Origin: a bacterium
GTDB lineage: Bacteria; Blakebacterota; Blakebacteria; Blakebacterales; Blakebacteraceae
Direction of reading: 5' to 3'
Length of the DNA: 7,133 nucleotides
Assembly (NCBI GenBank): GCA_025774615.1
Contig: JALGVQ010000161.1
Location: 1 to 7,133 of the forward strand
Position numbers and translations under genes: made by a program. The notes beneath the pieces are model-generated. The model did no database searches. It saw only the letters and a program-made list of their open reading frames with translations, and was not told the origin of the DNA. Shown piece after piece: positions 1-6,557 of the stretch. Position 1 is the first letter of the stretch; every line of letters begins with the position of its first letter.

Positions 1-792
1 TCACAGTACGAGTTTCCGAAAACCCTGATTTTTGTCGGATTTGTGGCCGAAGAGCAGGGCCTCGTGGGCGCGTCCCTGCTCGCACAGAAGATGAAGGCCG
101 AAGGCAAGGAGATCGAGGCCGTCCTGAATATGGATATGATCGGGAGCAGTGTGCGTGGCGGGGGCGCTCCGAGCCAGCCCACGACCGTGCGTCTGTTCAG
201 TGAAGGGCCTGCGGACTCACCCTCACGGCAGATCGCCCGGTTCATGGAGATGATCGGTGAGCGGTACGTGCCGGAGCATGATATCGATCTGATCTTCCGT
301 CCCGATCGCTTCGGACGGGGCGGTGACCACACCGCATTCAACCGGGAAGAATTCCCGGGGGTGCGTCTGGTGGAGGCGAATGAGGACTACAACCTCCAGC
401 ACTCCTACAACGACACGTTTGAGAGCCTCGATATGGACTACCTGATGCGGAACGCCCGCATCGAGGCGACCACCGCGGCAACGCTCGCCCTGGCGCCAGC
501 GGCTCCGAGACCGATGGGCCTCGGCCGCGGCGAGGGATACGACGCCCAGGTCAGGTTCATGCCGGCGGTGGGGGAAGGGATCACCGGATATGTCGTCGCG
601 TTCCGCTCCACAACCTCGCCACGCTGGGAGGAGTACCGGTGGGTGGGAGTGCCTGAGATGGTGACCGACCGACGGGGCAGGGAATACTACGCGGTGACAT
701 TCCCGCACATGGATATCGATGAGATCGTGGTGGGTGTCGCAGCAGTGGGCGGCTCCGGCAGGCCTTCACTCATCTCGGCATTTCTGCGCTGA
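1..792 (+). CDS. M28 family zinc aminopeptidase-like protein, C-terminal part (5' end outside window)
   Basis: The frame is open from base 1 and ends at TGA 790-792, giving 263 visible residues; the N-terminus lies upstream. M28 enzymes are di-zinc exopeptidases that release N-terminal amino acids. Seen here (numbered from the first visible codon): FVAEEQGLVGA at 11-24, where family logic makes E17 the catalytic base and E18 a zinc ligand; NMDMIG at 43-48 with probable ligand D45; GGDHTAF at 107-113; and QHSYNDT at 133-139 with probable last ligand H134. Residues from about 178 to 263 form a beta-rich tail with an aromatic WEEYRW segment, like the fibronectin-III-type C-terminal extensions of secreted M28 proteins. 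A GTG codon at 43-45 could be mistaken for a start, but it lies inside the active-site motif. Export is expected but cannot be seen. The gene converges on the HisKA membrane protein with no gap. Substrate is unknown. Confidence 0.9.
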   Translation, partial: SQYEFPKTLIFVGFVAEEQGLVGASLLAQKMKAEGKEIEAVLNMDMIGSSVRGGGAPSQPTTVRLFSEGPADSPSRQIARFMEMIGERYVPEHDIDLIFRPDRFGRGGDHTAFNREEFPGVRLVEANEDYNLQHSYNDTFESLDMDYLMRNARIEATTAATLALAPAAPRPMGLGRGEGYDAQVRFMPAVGEGITGYVVAFRSTTSPRWEEYRWVGVPEMVTDRRGREYYAVTFPHMDIDEIVVGVAAVGGSGRPSLISAFLR

Positions 793-1656
793 TCAGTCCT
801 CTTCGCGCTCTTCCAGCACCTCTTGCTCCTCCTGGAGTGGAAACCGCTCCAGGAGGCCCTTTCCGCTGATTGACCTGTCAAACTCCAGCTCACGGAGTTG
901 TGATACCGCTTTGCCGATTCGACTGAGCGCTTCTTCGATCTTGTCCAGTCCGACAATCGATGCTCCCGAATCCTGCTGTTTCAAAAGCTCGAGGTTCCCG
1001 GTGGCGATCGTCAGTGGGTTGTTCACCTCATGCTGGACCGTATTGATGATGCGGTGGATCGTCTCATCCTCGGTAGCCATGCCATTCCGGATCGCCTGAC
1101 GCTCACTGTTCACGAGGATGCGGCCGATGCCAAGGATACCTATGAGTGAGAAACCGAATCCGACAATAGTGCTATGTATGGAAACTATCTGTACCGGTGC
1201 GAACCTGCCCACCATCCAGATCGTCATCAGGAACAACACGACGGTTGCAGCCATTTCCTGCCACCTATAGCGGAAGCGGATCACGTAGCTGAGCGCCGCG
1301 GCCGCCCATAATCCCCAGAATGAACTCGCCAGTCCACCCGTATTGAGTACGATAACGGTCGCCACCAGCAGGTCGAGGATCGTGATTACGCCGGCTGTGA
1401 GAGAGAGCTGGTATCTCCTGTAAGGGGCCCACCGGCTGTAGATAGTCGCGCACAGGAGGAAGAAGAACAGAATACCCAGGTAGAGTGTGCCCGACATGAC
1501 GAGAGGGAGTATCTCGAATATGACCAGGAAAAAACTCACGACAAAGCCGGTGATGCCGATCAGGACGTGCAGATTGGCGATCTTCTGCTCGGTCTCGATT
1601 GCCGATTCCCTCAGATAGGGAGTGAGTCTGGTCACCTTCTCATCCAGCGGATGCAT
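793..1656 (-). CDS. Six-helix membrane protein with HisKA domain but no ATPase domain (truncated RegB-like sensor)
   Basis: This 287-residue protein begins at ATG 1656 and stops at 793. Six hydrophobic stretches (about residues 30-53, 57-73, 86-104, 110-127, 134-151, 157-182) put both ends in the cytoplasm. After a short linker comes a HisKA H-box, TVQHEVNNPLT at 206-216, with candidate phosphoacceptor H209 followed by E210. Only about 78 residues follow the histidine, ending in an acidic tail; no N, G1 or G2 box of a HATPase_c domain is present, and none is found in the other frames beyond the stop. GGLASSF at 107-113, between helices 3 and 4, resembles the GGxxNPF quinone-site motif at the same place in RegB/PrrB, but the Asn and Pro are Ser. 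It follows the tricorn gene by 3 nt with its own AGGAGG, so it is probably translationally coupled. It cannot autophosphorylate alone; it could be a phosphotransfer or dimerisation partner, a dominant-negative subunit or a decayed kinase. Confidence 0.85.
   Translation of the reverse strand: MHPLDEKVTRLTPYLRESAIETEQKIANLHVLIGITGFVVSFFLVIFEILPLVMSGTLYLGILFFFLLCATIYSRWAPYRRYQLSLTAGVITILDLLVATVIVLNTGGLASSFWGLWAAAALSYVIRFRYRWQEMAATVVLFLMTIWMVGRFAPVQIVSIHSTIVGFGFSLIGILGIGRILVNSERQAIRNGMATEDETIHRIINTVQHEVNNPLTIATGNLELLKQQDSGASIVGLDKIEEALSRIGKAVSQLRELEFDRSISGKGLLERFPLQEEQEVLEEREED
828..856. terminator. Strong hairpin (13-bp stem) inside the 3' end of the HisKA gene, just past the M28 stop
   Basis: Arms CCTCCTGGAG (828-837) and CTCCAGGAGG (847-856) are perfect reverse complements. 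The stem continues inward through a T-G pair and two G-C pairs, closing on an AAA loop at 841-843. It starts 36 nt after the M28 stop codon and reads, for that transcript, as a GC-rich stem followed by CCCTTTCC, which is only a weak U-tract. On the minus strand no T-run follows it. It may end or protect the M28 transcript, or stabilise the 3' end of the tricorn-HisKA mRNA. The structure is seen directly; the terminator role is inferred. Confidence 0.5.
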
Positions 1657-1659
1657 CTG

Positions 1660-4600
1660 TCAGCGGCCTCCTATCTGTTCTCTCAGTATCTGTATCGCTC
1701 GTACCAGCTGGGGGTCTTCTCCCCGCAGATCGTGATTCAGATCGTTGATTACCATGATATCAGGTGTTACCCCTCCACTGGTCTCAAGGTCCACACCATC
1801 GAGAGTATAGCAGCCCCACCAGGGTAGACGGAAGGAACCACCGTTGAGCAGGCGGGCGCTGGTAGTAAAGATCAGCCAGCCGTAGGTGGTGTTCCCGACA
1901 ACCGTACCGCGGTCGAGGGCCTTGAATCCGCTGGTGGTCATCTCGCCGTCGCTCAGGGTTACCTCGTTGATGAGCAGAACGACCGGTCGGTCAGAGAATC
2001 CGAACGTCGACTGGGGTGTCTCGCTCAGGCCCCGCTGCTGCCATTTCGCGTAGACCGGCCGGGTGAGGGCATCGAGTACCCGGTCGTGAACGTTGCCACC
2101 CATGTTGTAGCGCAGGTCGAGGATCAATCCCTCCCGCGGTACGGCATCCCGCTCGAGTTCCAACAGGAAACGGTTCAGATCCCCGGTCCCCATGGCCGAC
2201 ATGTAAATGTAGGCGCCCCGGTCCCCGGTTTTCCTGGTTACGATCTCGCGACGACTCTCCACCCACTCCCGCTGCCTGAGACTCCGTTCGGCGCCACTCG
2301 AGATAGGACTTACCGTCAGACGCATCTCATCACCGCTGCGCTGACTTTTCACGGTGACGTACACACGGCGACCGATCTTGCCGTTGAGCAGCAGCCAGAT
2401 ATTCTCACCGGCGGAGACCGGATCATCGTTGATGGATACGATCTCATCCCCGACCGAAACACTGTCCCGGTGGGCATACAGGGGGCTGTTTTTCAGGATG
2501 CTCCCGATGGTCACCCGGTCGCCTGAGAAGATGAACTCACACCCCAGGTGCGCGCTCGGATCAGGTGTTGAAAAACCGCCTCCGGGAGCCCGGATCCCGG
2601 TGTGGGAGGAATTCAGATAGCCGATCATCTCGTTCGCGTAGTCGTAGAAGTCCTGATCTTCCCTGACCTGTTGCAGGACCGGCAGGAAGTGCTCGTAGGT
2701 CGCCTTCCAGTCGACATCGTGGTGTTCGGAATCGTAGTAGTAGTGTTCGAGGACGTAATACACCTCACTGAGCATCTGCGCGTATTCTGCGGTCTGGTCC
2801 ACTTCGATCCGGGTCGAGAAAGAGATGGTGCTGTTTCGATCGTTGTTGGTGTCGATCCGTCCGATCCGCCCGCTGCTGGTGTAATAGAGATATCTGCCGG
2901 AAGCGTCGAACTGAAGGTTCCCGGGGTTGGATACCTGGGGAACGTATGCCTCATATGCGCCCCATCTGCCGTTTTGGAACTCCGACTTCCACAGGTGACT
3001 CCTGCCGGTGAGGTTCGAAACGAAATAGACGGTATCGGGATCCTTCGGGGAGAGGATCGGGAACCGTTCACTCCCCAGGGTGCGGGCCACCCGCTGAGTC
3101 TGCCGGTCGATATCTTCAAGATCGAGGACTACCATAACATCCTCTGAGTCAGATCTGTCACGACCTGCCGCCTCTTCACCTTCAGGTGTTTCATCACCCT
3201 CGGCTGCAAAGAGCGCCTCGAACTCGTCCTCATCGAATTCGGGAGCCCGCGGCTGCAGCAGCAGTCGGTAGATATCCGCCTGACCGGTGAATTCGGGAAA
3301 ACTGTGGCCTGAACGGTTCGATGCAAAGAAGAGGGACCTGCCGTCAGAAGACCATACCGGGCTTCCCTCATCATAAGCGGTGTTGGTGAGAGCCATCTTC
3401 TCGCCGGTCTCGACACTGATGGCGTAGATGTCGGTATTCGATCCCGATCGAACCACTGCCACATAGCGGCTGTCGGGTGACCAGGAGAAACCCTCTCCGA
3501 ACCTGCCGCCGAAGTCATCCTCGACCAGGAGCCGATCGCCGCTCCCGTCGGGTCGGATCAGACGGATCTGGCGATGACCGTGGTAATAGGCGATCCACTC
3601 ACCATCAGGAGAGAGCAGGGGGCCCAGTACATCATCTGATGTCCGGGTGAGACGGGTCGGATCGGAATTCCCGAGCGCCGAGATGATATAGAGATCGGGA
3701 TTGGCTTCGGGATCTGAGACGTAGATGATCCGCCTGCTTTCGGCGCCCCATGCGATGTCGCGTTCCCGCCACGGCGAGTTGGTGATGTTCCGCGCATAAT
3801 CACCATCGGTGGAGAGCACGAATATCTCACCGCGGATGACGGCCGCGATCTTCTTTCCATCAGGAGACACCCGGAATTCAGAGACCGATTCATTGGTAAG
3901 GGTTACGGTCCGGTTCTCCTTCAGCTCGTTCGGGGCTGCTATCGGGACCGCCTCGGACCTCCCGGTCTCGAGGTCGGTGAGCCATATGCCAAAATCCCGT
4001 TCATAGGCAGCCACGGGGACGTTCTTCGCCATCCGCATCCACCTGATGTCGTTTCTGCGGAAGCGCGTCACCGACTGCTGATCCGAGCCGTCCCTGGCTG
4101 CGCTCCAGATATTGCTGTTCCCGAATTCCCGATCGCTGACGAAGTAGATGCGGTCTCCGGAGGGGCCCCACGCGGGCCAGAAGGAATTACTCTCATCCTG
4201 TACCAGAAGCTGTGCCTCTTCCTCTCCGCTCCCCATGAACCAGATGGTTGCGCTGTTCGCTCCACGGTATCCACGCCGCCATTTGGAGCCGTTCTCCCAG
4301 CCCAGGGAGAAGAGGATGCCCTCACCATCCGGGTGCACCCTGGCGTCATACGGTCTGCTCCAGTGCGTCTCAAGGACCGGCAGAGCGTTTCCGCCGCCGA
4401 TGGGGATCTGCCAGGTCCCGGCCGAAGATGTTCTGCCGGAGGTGAAGTAGATCCACCTGCCGTCCGGGGAGAAATCAGTGGCAACATCGCTCGAAGTGTG
4501 GAAGGTGATCTGTTCCGGTTCACCGCCGCTCACCGGTATGAGGAAGATGTCGTTGTTCCCGGTCCGGTTGGAGGTGAAGGCGATCTGTGTGCCGTCAGGA

Positions 4601-4821
4601 GACCAGACCGGTTCACGTTCGTACGCGGTGTGATTGGTGAGTCTGGTGGCCTGTCCACCTTCACTGGAGACTACCCAGATATCCCCCATGTAGGAGAAGG
4701 CGATCTGTGACGCATCGGGGGAAAGTGAAGGGAACCGGGCGCCTATCAGCTGATCCTGCTGGGCGTTCACTCCGGTCATCATTACGCTCAGAAGGATGAA
4801 TCCAGCGACATATTTCTTCAT
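1660..4821 (-). CDS. Secreted tricorn-like protease (S41 family) with beta-propellers and PDZ domain
   Basis: This 1,053-residue protein is close to the length of archaeal tricorn. Archaeal tricorn cleaves oligopeptides made by the proteasome; bacterial homologues are often exported. Residues 1-20 are a Sec signal peptide (KK, hydrophobic core, VNA-QQ cleavage). Residues about 25-520 carry repeated PD40/WD40-like blades, each with an SPDG-type turn (WSPDG 73-77, FSPDG 117-121, VSPDG 318-322, LSPDG 403-407, WSPDS 447-451). An acidic linker lies at about 529-565, followed by a second propeller-like stretch to about 670. A helical C1 domain (about 675-745) contains LNSSH with H740 as putative catalytic His. 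A PDZ-like domain spans about 755-840. The S41 core has LDLRYNMGGN (901-910), TLSDGE with putative nucleophile S957, and DLETSGGVTPDI with E1013. All three catalytic positions look intact. It leads an operon with the HisKA membrane protein and is divergent from the OCD-family gene. Its real substrate is unknown. Confidence 0.95.
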   Translation of the reverse strand: MKKYVAGFILLSVMMTGVNAQQDQLIGARFPSLSPDASQIAFSYMGDIWVVSSEGGQATRLTNHTAYEREPVWSPDGTQIAFTSNRTGNNDIFLIPVSGGEPEQITFHTSSDVATDFSPDGRWIYFTSGRTSSAGTWQIPIGGGNALPVLETHWSRPYDARVHPDGEGILFSLGWENGSKWRRGYRGANSATIWFMGSGEEEAQLLVQDESNSFWPAWGPSGDRIYFVSDREFGNSNIWSAARDGSDQQSVTRFRRNDIRWMRMAKNVPVAAYERDFGIWLTDLETGRSEAVPIAAPNELKENRTVTLTNESVSEFRVSPDGKKIAAVIRGEIFVLSTDGDYARNITNSPWRERDIAWGAESRRIIYVSDPEANPDLYIISALGNSDPTRLTRTSDDVLGPLLSPDGEWIAYYHGHRQIRLIRPDGSGDRLLVEDDFGGRFGEGFSWSPDSRYVAVVRSGSNTDIYAISVETGEKMALTNTAYDEGSPVWSSDGRSLFFASNRSGHSFPEFTGQADIYRLLLQPRAPEFDEDEFEALFAAEGDETPEGEEAAGRDRSDSEDVMVVLDLEDIDRQTQRVARTLGSERFPILSPKDPDTVYFVSNLTGRSHLWKSEFQNGRWGAYEAYVPQVSNPGNLQFDASGRYLYYTSSGRIGRIDTNNDRNSTISFSTRIEVDQTAEYAQMLSEVYYVLEHYYYDSEHHDVDWKATYEHFLPVLQQVREDQDFYDYANEMIGYLNSSHTGIRAPGGGFSTPDPSAHLGCEFIFSGDRVTIGSILKNSPLYAHRDSVSVGDEIVSINDDPVSAGENIWLLLNGKIGRRVYVTVKSQRSGDEMRLTVSPISSGAERSLRQREWVESRREIVTRKTGDRGAYIYMSAMGTGDLNRFLLELERDAVPREGLILDLRYNMGGNVHDRVLDALTRPVYAKWQQRGLSETPQSTFGFSDRPVVLLINEVTLSDGEMTTSGFKALDRGTVVGNTTYGWLIFTTSARLLNGGSFRLPWWGCYTLDGVDLETSGGVTPDIMVINDLNHDLRGEDPQLVRAIQILREQIGGR
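1667..1672 (-). promoter_or_regulatory. Ribosome binding site of the HisKA gene within the tricorn 3' end
   Basis: On the minus strand AGGAGG lies 10 nt before ATG 1656 and inside the last codons of the tricorn gene, whose stop is at 1660-1662. Ribosomes ending tricorn finish 3 nt from the next start, which suggests coupled translation and supports this start codon. Confidence 0.7.
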
Positions 4822-6079: not shown

Positions 6080-6451
6080 TCAGGAGTCCTCCTCTTCCTC
6101 CTTGAGAAGCTCTTCGATAGCCTGTTTTGCCGCTTCCACGTCCGGTTCGGCCACCAGGACCCGCACTTCTCCCATGCCATCCATGGTGAATGGGTGAACG
6201 TTCAGCACCGAATGACCCCGGGTCATGCTCTCGATACCTATCGATTCGAGCATCGACTGGATCACATCGGATTCAGCCAGACCCTGAACCGAGTGCACCT
6301 GCACGATTTTCATGTCCCGATACTTCTCCCGCTCAGCCTCCATTGCGATCTGCCGTTGCTGATACTCCGTCTCGGAGATCAGGGGGACTTCACAATCGTG
6401 ACAGTGCGTGAATTCCTCACGGTACTCTGTTCCGCAATCGGGGCATCTCAT
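6080..6451 (-). CDS. Zinc-ribbon plus DUF2007 small protein
   Basis: This is a 123-residue soluble protein. The N-terminal zinc ribbon is CPDC (3-6) and CHDC (17-20), a CxxC-x10-CxxC pattern opening directly after Met. Residues 27-46 form a charged helical linker. Residues about 47-115 match the DUF2007 'putative signal transducing protein' fold: an alpha/beta pattern with VQGLAESDVIQSMLESIGIE and EVRVLVAEPDVEAAKQAIEEL. The tail is acidic (EEEED). The family's role is unknown. I chose ATG 6451 because these proteins usually begin with M-x-C-P-x-C; the frame stays open to a GTG at 6541, which would add 30 residues without domain resemblance. Neither start has a clear Shine-Dalgarno site, so the start is uncertain. 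It converges on the OCD-family gene with a 16-nt gap and is divergent from the M14 gene. Confidence 0.85.
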   Translation of the reverse strand: MRCPDCGTEYREEFTHCHDCEVPLISETEYQQRQIAMEAEREKYRDMKIVQVHSVQGLAESDVIQSMLESIGIESMTRGHSVLNVHPFTMDGMGEVRVLVAEPDVEAAKQAIEELLKEEEEDS

Positions 6452-6557
6452 CGATTCGATCCGATCGTTCAGTTCAGATAATCCAGGTAATCGACAGTGT
6501 TTGACCAGGTATGGTACCAGAATCTTGCATCTCTCTGCCACCTGATGCAGGTAGCGA

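Follow-up and report, generated by a model that had tools for sequence, protein, structure and literature searches.

HisKA proteins without an ATPase domain

Proteins that combine a sensor part with a HisKA domain, and that have no HATPase, have been described before. In the portions of Galperin et al. (2018, PMC5847659) compared here, such proteins are known in archaea, phosphoacceptor and phosphatase roles are suggested for them, and they are said to be often annotated as kinases though unable to act as such alone. The corresponding portions of Amin et al. (2013, PMC3591291) count 42417 HisKA proteins in SMART; HATPase is absent from 1556, of which 711 carry the HE/DxxN/T motif. No experimental study of a characterised HisKA-only protein was found in the open-licence literature searched. 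For HisKA kinases, Willett and Kirby (PMC3510030) assigned to the acid following the phospho-accepting His (+1) a role in kinase and not in phosphatase activity, and to the Asn or Thr at +4 a role in phosphatase and not in kinase activity. In CrdS, the His was hardly required for the phosphatase, which a change of N to Q at +4 inactivated (PMC3510030). In NtrB and EnvZ the DHp domain alone suffices for phosphatase activity, which the CA domain greatly raises.

The protein described here is one of this already described kind, since PMC5847659, PMC2716373 and PMC3591291 describe or count such proteins. It has the make-up of an "incomplete histidine kinase", namely a HisKA domain with the conserved His, no HATPase, a genuine end and no frameshift. 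With the proteins of Galperin et al. and Amin et al. it shares a sensor part followed by HisKA with the conserved His and no HATPase, and its Asn at +4 is that of the HE/DxxN/T subset in the compared part of PMC3591291. It differs in being a bacterial protein with a six-helix membrane sensor, whereas the parts of PMC5847659 and PMC3591291 compared give archaeal REC, PAS and GAF architectures or bulk counts. The DHp domains of CrdS, EnvZ and NtrB have the same H-E-x-x-N core, in which the +4 Asn is required for the CrdS phosphatase (PMC3510030); unlike the present protein, these three carry a CA (HATPase) domain and autophosphorylate.

The gene, its end and its neighbors

The window, that is, the whole stretch of 7,133 nucleotides analysed here, is an entire contig of an 82%-complete genome, and the phylum is represented by four genomes. 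The sensor gene occupies positions 793..1656 of the reverse strand, starts with ATG and encodes 287 residues, in which about six membrane helices precede a HisKA (DHp) domain as the only output. The Pfam HisKA match (residues 203-257, E=9.9e-7, 29.2 bits with the cut-off at 26.9) is beyond chance, and no HATPase_c match to the frame was obtained with Pfam at E<=1. In the AlphaFold2 model the DHp recognised by Pfam is a hairpin (pLDDT ~78-91) composed of helix a1, residues ~183-228 (973..1110; this and all further parts of the protein lie on the reverse strand), and helix a2, residues 233-257 (886..960). The membrane part of the model is less certain, and the tail is disordered, with low pLDDT over residues 261-287. 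The best Foldseek neighbors of the model are kinase DHp domains (CpxA, a LOV-histidine kinase, ERS1, and GacS), all at weak E-values (0.46 and up).

The H-box reads H209-E210-V-N-N213-P-L-T, with its core H209-E210-V211-N212-N213 at 1018..1032 (H209 codon 1030-1032, E210 codon 1027-1029). The Asn or Thr required at +4 in HisKA-type response-regulator phosphatases is thus present, as N213. The protein stops 78 residues past H209, after an acidic C-terminal tail (residues 258-287; 796..885). These features agree with the sequence-only reading, which had described six membrane helices, an intact H-box and a stop about 78 residues past the His with no ATP-binding domain; the structure prediction that it named as a check returned the DHp hairpin.

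The sensor stop codon (793-795) is abutted by the stop codon (790-792) of a convergent M28 peptidase gene (1..792, forward strand, incomplete at the contig start), and the DNA beyond the sensor stop encodes the C-terminus of this peptidase on the opposite strand (Pfam E=5.9e-15). An HATPase hidden by a frameshift was therefore rejected, and the end of the sensor protein is genuine. On the other side lies a tricorn-like protease gene (1660..4821, reverse strand; beta-propeller, PDZ, and S41 by Pfam). Since only 3 nt separate its stop from the sensor ATG, which has GGAGG upstream, the two genes probably form one operon. Pfam identified no HATPase gene in the whole window, and among the window's open reading frames no REC domain in the sensor protein and no adjoining REC or regulator gene. 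Further along, positions 6080-6541 of the reverse strand encode a small protein that combines a zinc ribbon with a DUF2007-like domain and bears a weak likeness, below the cut-off, to the zinc ribbon (seleno)protein model NF049953 (E=3e-12).

The membrane sensor

RegB possesses six membrane helices, the motif GGxxNPF and a redox-box Cys (PMC8191878). In the window protein the membrane sensor spans residues ~25-178 (1123..1584), with five clear segments by hydropathy (25-50, 51-76, 83-111, 135-155, and 157-178). A weaker sixth (~112-127) is a helix of its own (110-127) in the AlphaFold2 model, whose membrane helices are of moderate confidence. Between helices 3 and 4 by hydropathy, residues 107-113 (1318..1338) read GGLASSF, as had been noticed before. 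Six membrane helices, a GG loop between the third and the fourth, and HisKA are therefore common to this protein and to RegB, PrrB and ActS. In contrast, it is without NPF, without HATPase and without the redox-box Cys near the H-box, its sole Cys (residue 69) lying in membrane helix 2. The ActS/PrrB/RegB model NF033792 gave no match to the frame at E<=0.001. The RegB-type quinone sensor proposed in the sequence-only reading was rejected, since the loop is not GGxxNPF and the family model does not recognise the protein.

The same model does match the six-helix part of L268 in the same genome (E=4.6e-10), a 459-aa frame in which a six-helix module with TGGIDSPL is fused to GGDEF. A local alignment of the window sensor with L268 scored 61, with the GG in register, and one of 300 block-shuffled controls scored as high; the alignment with a second six-helix protein, the kinase L269, was not above shuffles. 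Judged from these alignments, the sensor would weakly resemble a general six-helix module with a TGGxxS loop, which also occurs fused to GGDEF in the same genome. It is best called a generic six-helix module.

A class of kinase-less DHp proteins

Several of the DHp matches to the window protein proved to be kinase-less themselves: a REC-HisKA protein of the same genome, a 2-TM protein from the sister genus and, in distant genomes, forms of the GAF, PAS and MASE1-like types. Most of them share a C-terminal Y..G..M[IL]D[IL] motif, which the window protein does not have. Profile and pattern searches together yielded at least ~175 HisKA proteins without a kinase half; they come from some 20 phyla, and their sensor parts are of the REC, GAF, PAS or membrane type. 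For the pattern search, a DNA pattern (HE.NNP, 165-195 nt, M[IL]D[LI]) was run against genome_contigs, and short forms made up 107 of 120 among the matches listed, from Rokubacteria, Gemmatimonadota, Zixibacteria, Desulfuromonadia, Bacteroidota, Myxococcota, and others. Because the pattern itself selects for them, conservation at the H-box and MxD positions in this set proves nothing. The profile search avoids most of this bias but, because the profile was built from class members, still leans towards the tail motif; in 290 genomes it found 63 closed kinase-less frames at first count (65 and 66 later, with slightly different filters), under 37 family codes.

About half of the class carry a REC domain of their own (30 of 65 in the profile set; 57 of 114 in the pattern set, among the matches listed), and an alignment of 16 REC-fused members shows no variation at the Asp and Lys of the REC, the His of the DHp, or the Asp of the tail. 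Loosely defined, the tail motif occurs in 48 of 61 class members, compared with 8 of 53 canonical kinases. For the REC-DHp protein encoded in the genome of the window, structure prediction places two short strands in the tail (221-224 and 228-231; block pLDDT ~81-84), which likely form a beta-hairpin. HATPase genes lie within ~400 nt of ~8% of class members, and a conserved HATPase or REC neighbor accompanies only a minority. Among the matches of ten members no dedicated model for the class was seen in Pfam or NCBIfam (for the REC-fused members, among the best 25 NCBIfam matches). The portions of PMC5847659 and PMC3591291 compared make no mention of the Y..G..M[IL]D[IL] motif. The tail motif, the modelled hairpin, a near-clean tree split, and an asymmetry of residue loss, all worked out here, are absent from the parts of the literature compared, which does not establish that they are new.

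In a tree of the DHp alone (119 rows, tail left out), 4 changes suffice to explain the kinase-less label, compared with 39 for shuffled labels; the canonical rows are the ones picked up incidentally by the class profile. The rows nearest to the window protein are kinase-less; its branch is long (2.13), and with few columns and long branches single placements in this tree are unsure. A class model built without the protein's own phylum scores it at 43.9 bits versus 35.5 for the canonical model, the match stopping before the tail, and neither the class alignment nor the class model places the C-terminal motif in it. Since its DHp groups with the class but the tail motif is missing, the protein is by sequence comparison a tail-less relative of the class and not a full member. 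It shares with REC-, GAF-, PAS- and MASE1-like-DHp members (e.g., L017, L208, and L254) the DHp-only output, the HExNNP core, a stop 70-90 residues past the His and the placement on the DHp tree. It differs from them in having no C-terminal motif or hairpin, and its six-helix sensor was seen in no other member examined.

Homologues running into HATPase_c, which the sequence-only reading had named as a sign of truncation, were not found: no relative of the whole six-helix protein continues into that domain in the genus, the family, the four-genome phylum, or among the hits of peptide patterns in genome_contigs. A whole-protein orthologue was likewise not found in the phylum's remaining three genomes (63-85% complete) or with the peptide patterns. 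Additionally, the best matches of the upstream tricorn gene in those three genomes are only ~33% identical, which leaves no orthologous locus for comparison. Conservation of the short form, raised as a check in the sequence-only reading, is seen for a DHp class of short forms, while for the exact six-helix form no orthologue was found. The earlier argument that an intact H-box speaks against simple decay is strengthened by the fact that the DHp falls in with a large class of short forms that are themselves conserved.

Residue pattern and proposed activity

The residue at +4 is N, Q, T or S in all 66 kinase-less sequences, with Q in 15 of them. The acid at +1 has been lost in 13 of 66 (8 changes on the tree) versus one of 53 canonical kinases, and the His in 4 of 66 versus none of 53. 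Retention of the His across homologues, raised earlier as a check, therefore stands for most class members, which keep both His and acid, and fails for these four. This pattern is what would be expected if kinase chemistry were dispensable and the phosphatase residue needed; it favors a phosphatase reading, which had not been raised before, and falls short of proof. We consider it most likely that class proteins do not work as kinases but turn off the regulators they partner with, or pass phosphate on.

Two groups of sequences illustrate the variation. In L236:4980-6665, L241:3888-5231 and L243:4908-7757, an Asp replaces the phospho-accepting His (DHINTP, DQINTP) and the tail motif is kept. 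Three genomes of the phylum each encode one related 2-TM (PAS) HisKA-only protein (L018:2918-3577, HKLNN; L210:631-1575, HKINN; L223:4977-6053, HVINN), in which the acid at +1 is lost and the His and the +4 Asn are kept; its neighbor in L018 and L223 is a TPR lipoprotein gene.

For the window protein we put forward, with a probability of about 0.45, that it is a membrane-bound, sensor-gated response-regulator phosphatase with the DHp hairpin as sole output, possibly also a phosphoacceptor. The six-helix part would sense a membrane or periplasmic signal, passed on through the helix that runs into DHp a1 so as to change the exposure or geometry of the H-box. The protein cannot phosphorylate itself in cis. 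Its DHp, which we infer to be dimeric, would dock one or more phosphorylated response regulators and speed their dephosphorylation, N213 helping to place the attacking water; because the docked DHp would act in this manner, the signal would set the rate at which regulators are switched off. Since H209 and E210 are both kept, the protein may also accept phosphate, with H209 taking it from a regulator or from the ATPase domain of another protein. The genuine end without HATPase, the grouping of the DHp, the retention of +4 and the scarcity of HATPase neighbors speak for a phosphatase. On the other side stand the Q at +4 in 15 of 66 class members, the missing class tail motif, the long branch and the lack of an adjoining regulator gene, and a pure phosphatase would not need the E210 that the protein keeps. 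Furthermore, a DHp-only phosphatase may be weak, because the CA domain greatly raises the activity in NtrB and EnvZ.

Alternative explanations

Acceptor or relay roles are conceivable because H209, E210 and N213 are all kept. In one such scenario the protein is the acceptor half of a split histidine kinase, whose H209 is phosphorylated in trans by the ATPase domain of a separate protein and then donates the phosphate to a response regulator, while the free protein would act as a phosphatase, as in CheA3/CheA4. Amin et al. proposed this role for HisKA proteins without HATPase of the HE/DxxN/T subset (PMC3591291, in the part compared), and H209 and E210 are intact here as in most of the class. 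Nevertheless, we hold it to be unlikely: in the class the +1 acid is lost repeatedly and the His a few times, and the separate ATPase partner suggested in the sequence-only reading finds no backing in gene order, with no HATPase gene in the window and few near other class members; a partner encoded elsewhere in the genome is conceivable. CheA3 and CheA4 of Rhodobacter sphaeroides do have phosphoacceptor and ATPase on separate proteins, but they employ CheA P1-type (Hpt) chemistry and have a known partner, unlike the window protein. A relay or phosphate sink, in which H209 takes phosphate from the REC of one regulator and gives it to another in the manner of Spo0B, seems to us rather improbable. 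Spo0B and the window protein have in common a DHp-like hairpin, a His that can be phosphorylated and the lack of kinase activity; Spo0B is, by contrast, soluble, with an ATPase-like remnant and no sensor. The many class members with their own REC, and the invariant Asp and Lys of these domains, fit a relay, and P2CS files HisKA-only proteins as phosphotransfer proteins (PMC2716373, in the part compared). However, the window protein has neither a REC nor a REC neighbor, and some class members have lost the His and yet keep the tail.

The intact DHp hairpin of the AlphaFold2 model would also suit a dominant non-catalytic partner that dimerises with a complete kinase so as to inhibit or adjust it, as proposed for RetS/GacS, and Foldseek also returned a RetS-GacS DHp co-complex (7n0e, TMt 0.85, E 2.2). 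Mere pairing would not need the +4 residue that is always kept, and DHp domains usually self-pair; we regard this scenario as quite improbable. Least probable of all, and very much so, is that an ordinary full-length kinase was recently truncated or has decayed and persists by chance. The lack of a whole-protein orthologue in the genomes and patterns searched, the long branch and the missing tail motif could be read in this way. Against it stand an intact frame with GGAGG upstream in a tight operon, a convergent gene that abuts with no ATPase remnant, an intact H-box, and a DHp nearer to kinase-less than to full-length proteins.

A possible mobile output module

On a broader scale, the kinase-less DHp proteins might represent one ancient, mobile output module (DHp plus C-terminal beta-hairpin), spread over some 20 bacterial phyla and joined to REC, GAF, PAS or membrane sensors. 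They would then make up an extensive and largely overlooked layer of two-component networks, consisting of signal-gated phosphatases or phosphate sinks, of which the window protein would be a membrane-sensing branch without the hairpin; we advance this proposal tentatively and with more doubt than confidence. If the class is coherent, with a preserved phosphatase residue and a C-terminal element of its own, many poorly studied phyla would hold a signal-responsive "off" or relay layer in their two-component networks that annotation hides. The window protein would be one orphan member. The class yields predictions at the level of single residues, namely the His, +1, +4, and the tail Asp.

Some members depart from the simple make-up. 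In L052, L109, L039 and L046, ~110-140 residues follow the DHp and tail motif, and this extra stretch is REC-like in L052 and L109 (VDDN) and perhaps a degenerate REC in L039 and L046. Three genomes have a closely spaced pair of kinase-less DHp genes on the same strand (L208:4965-8876, L206:4950-9444, and L049:4647-7201), preceded upstream by an HDOD gene and a FliA-like gene of the sigma-70 family. L208 and L206 have a DUF6115-type gene between the pair, and L206:5820-6587 is a third weak HisKA match. These paired loci possibly represent a motility locus.
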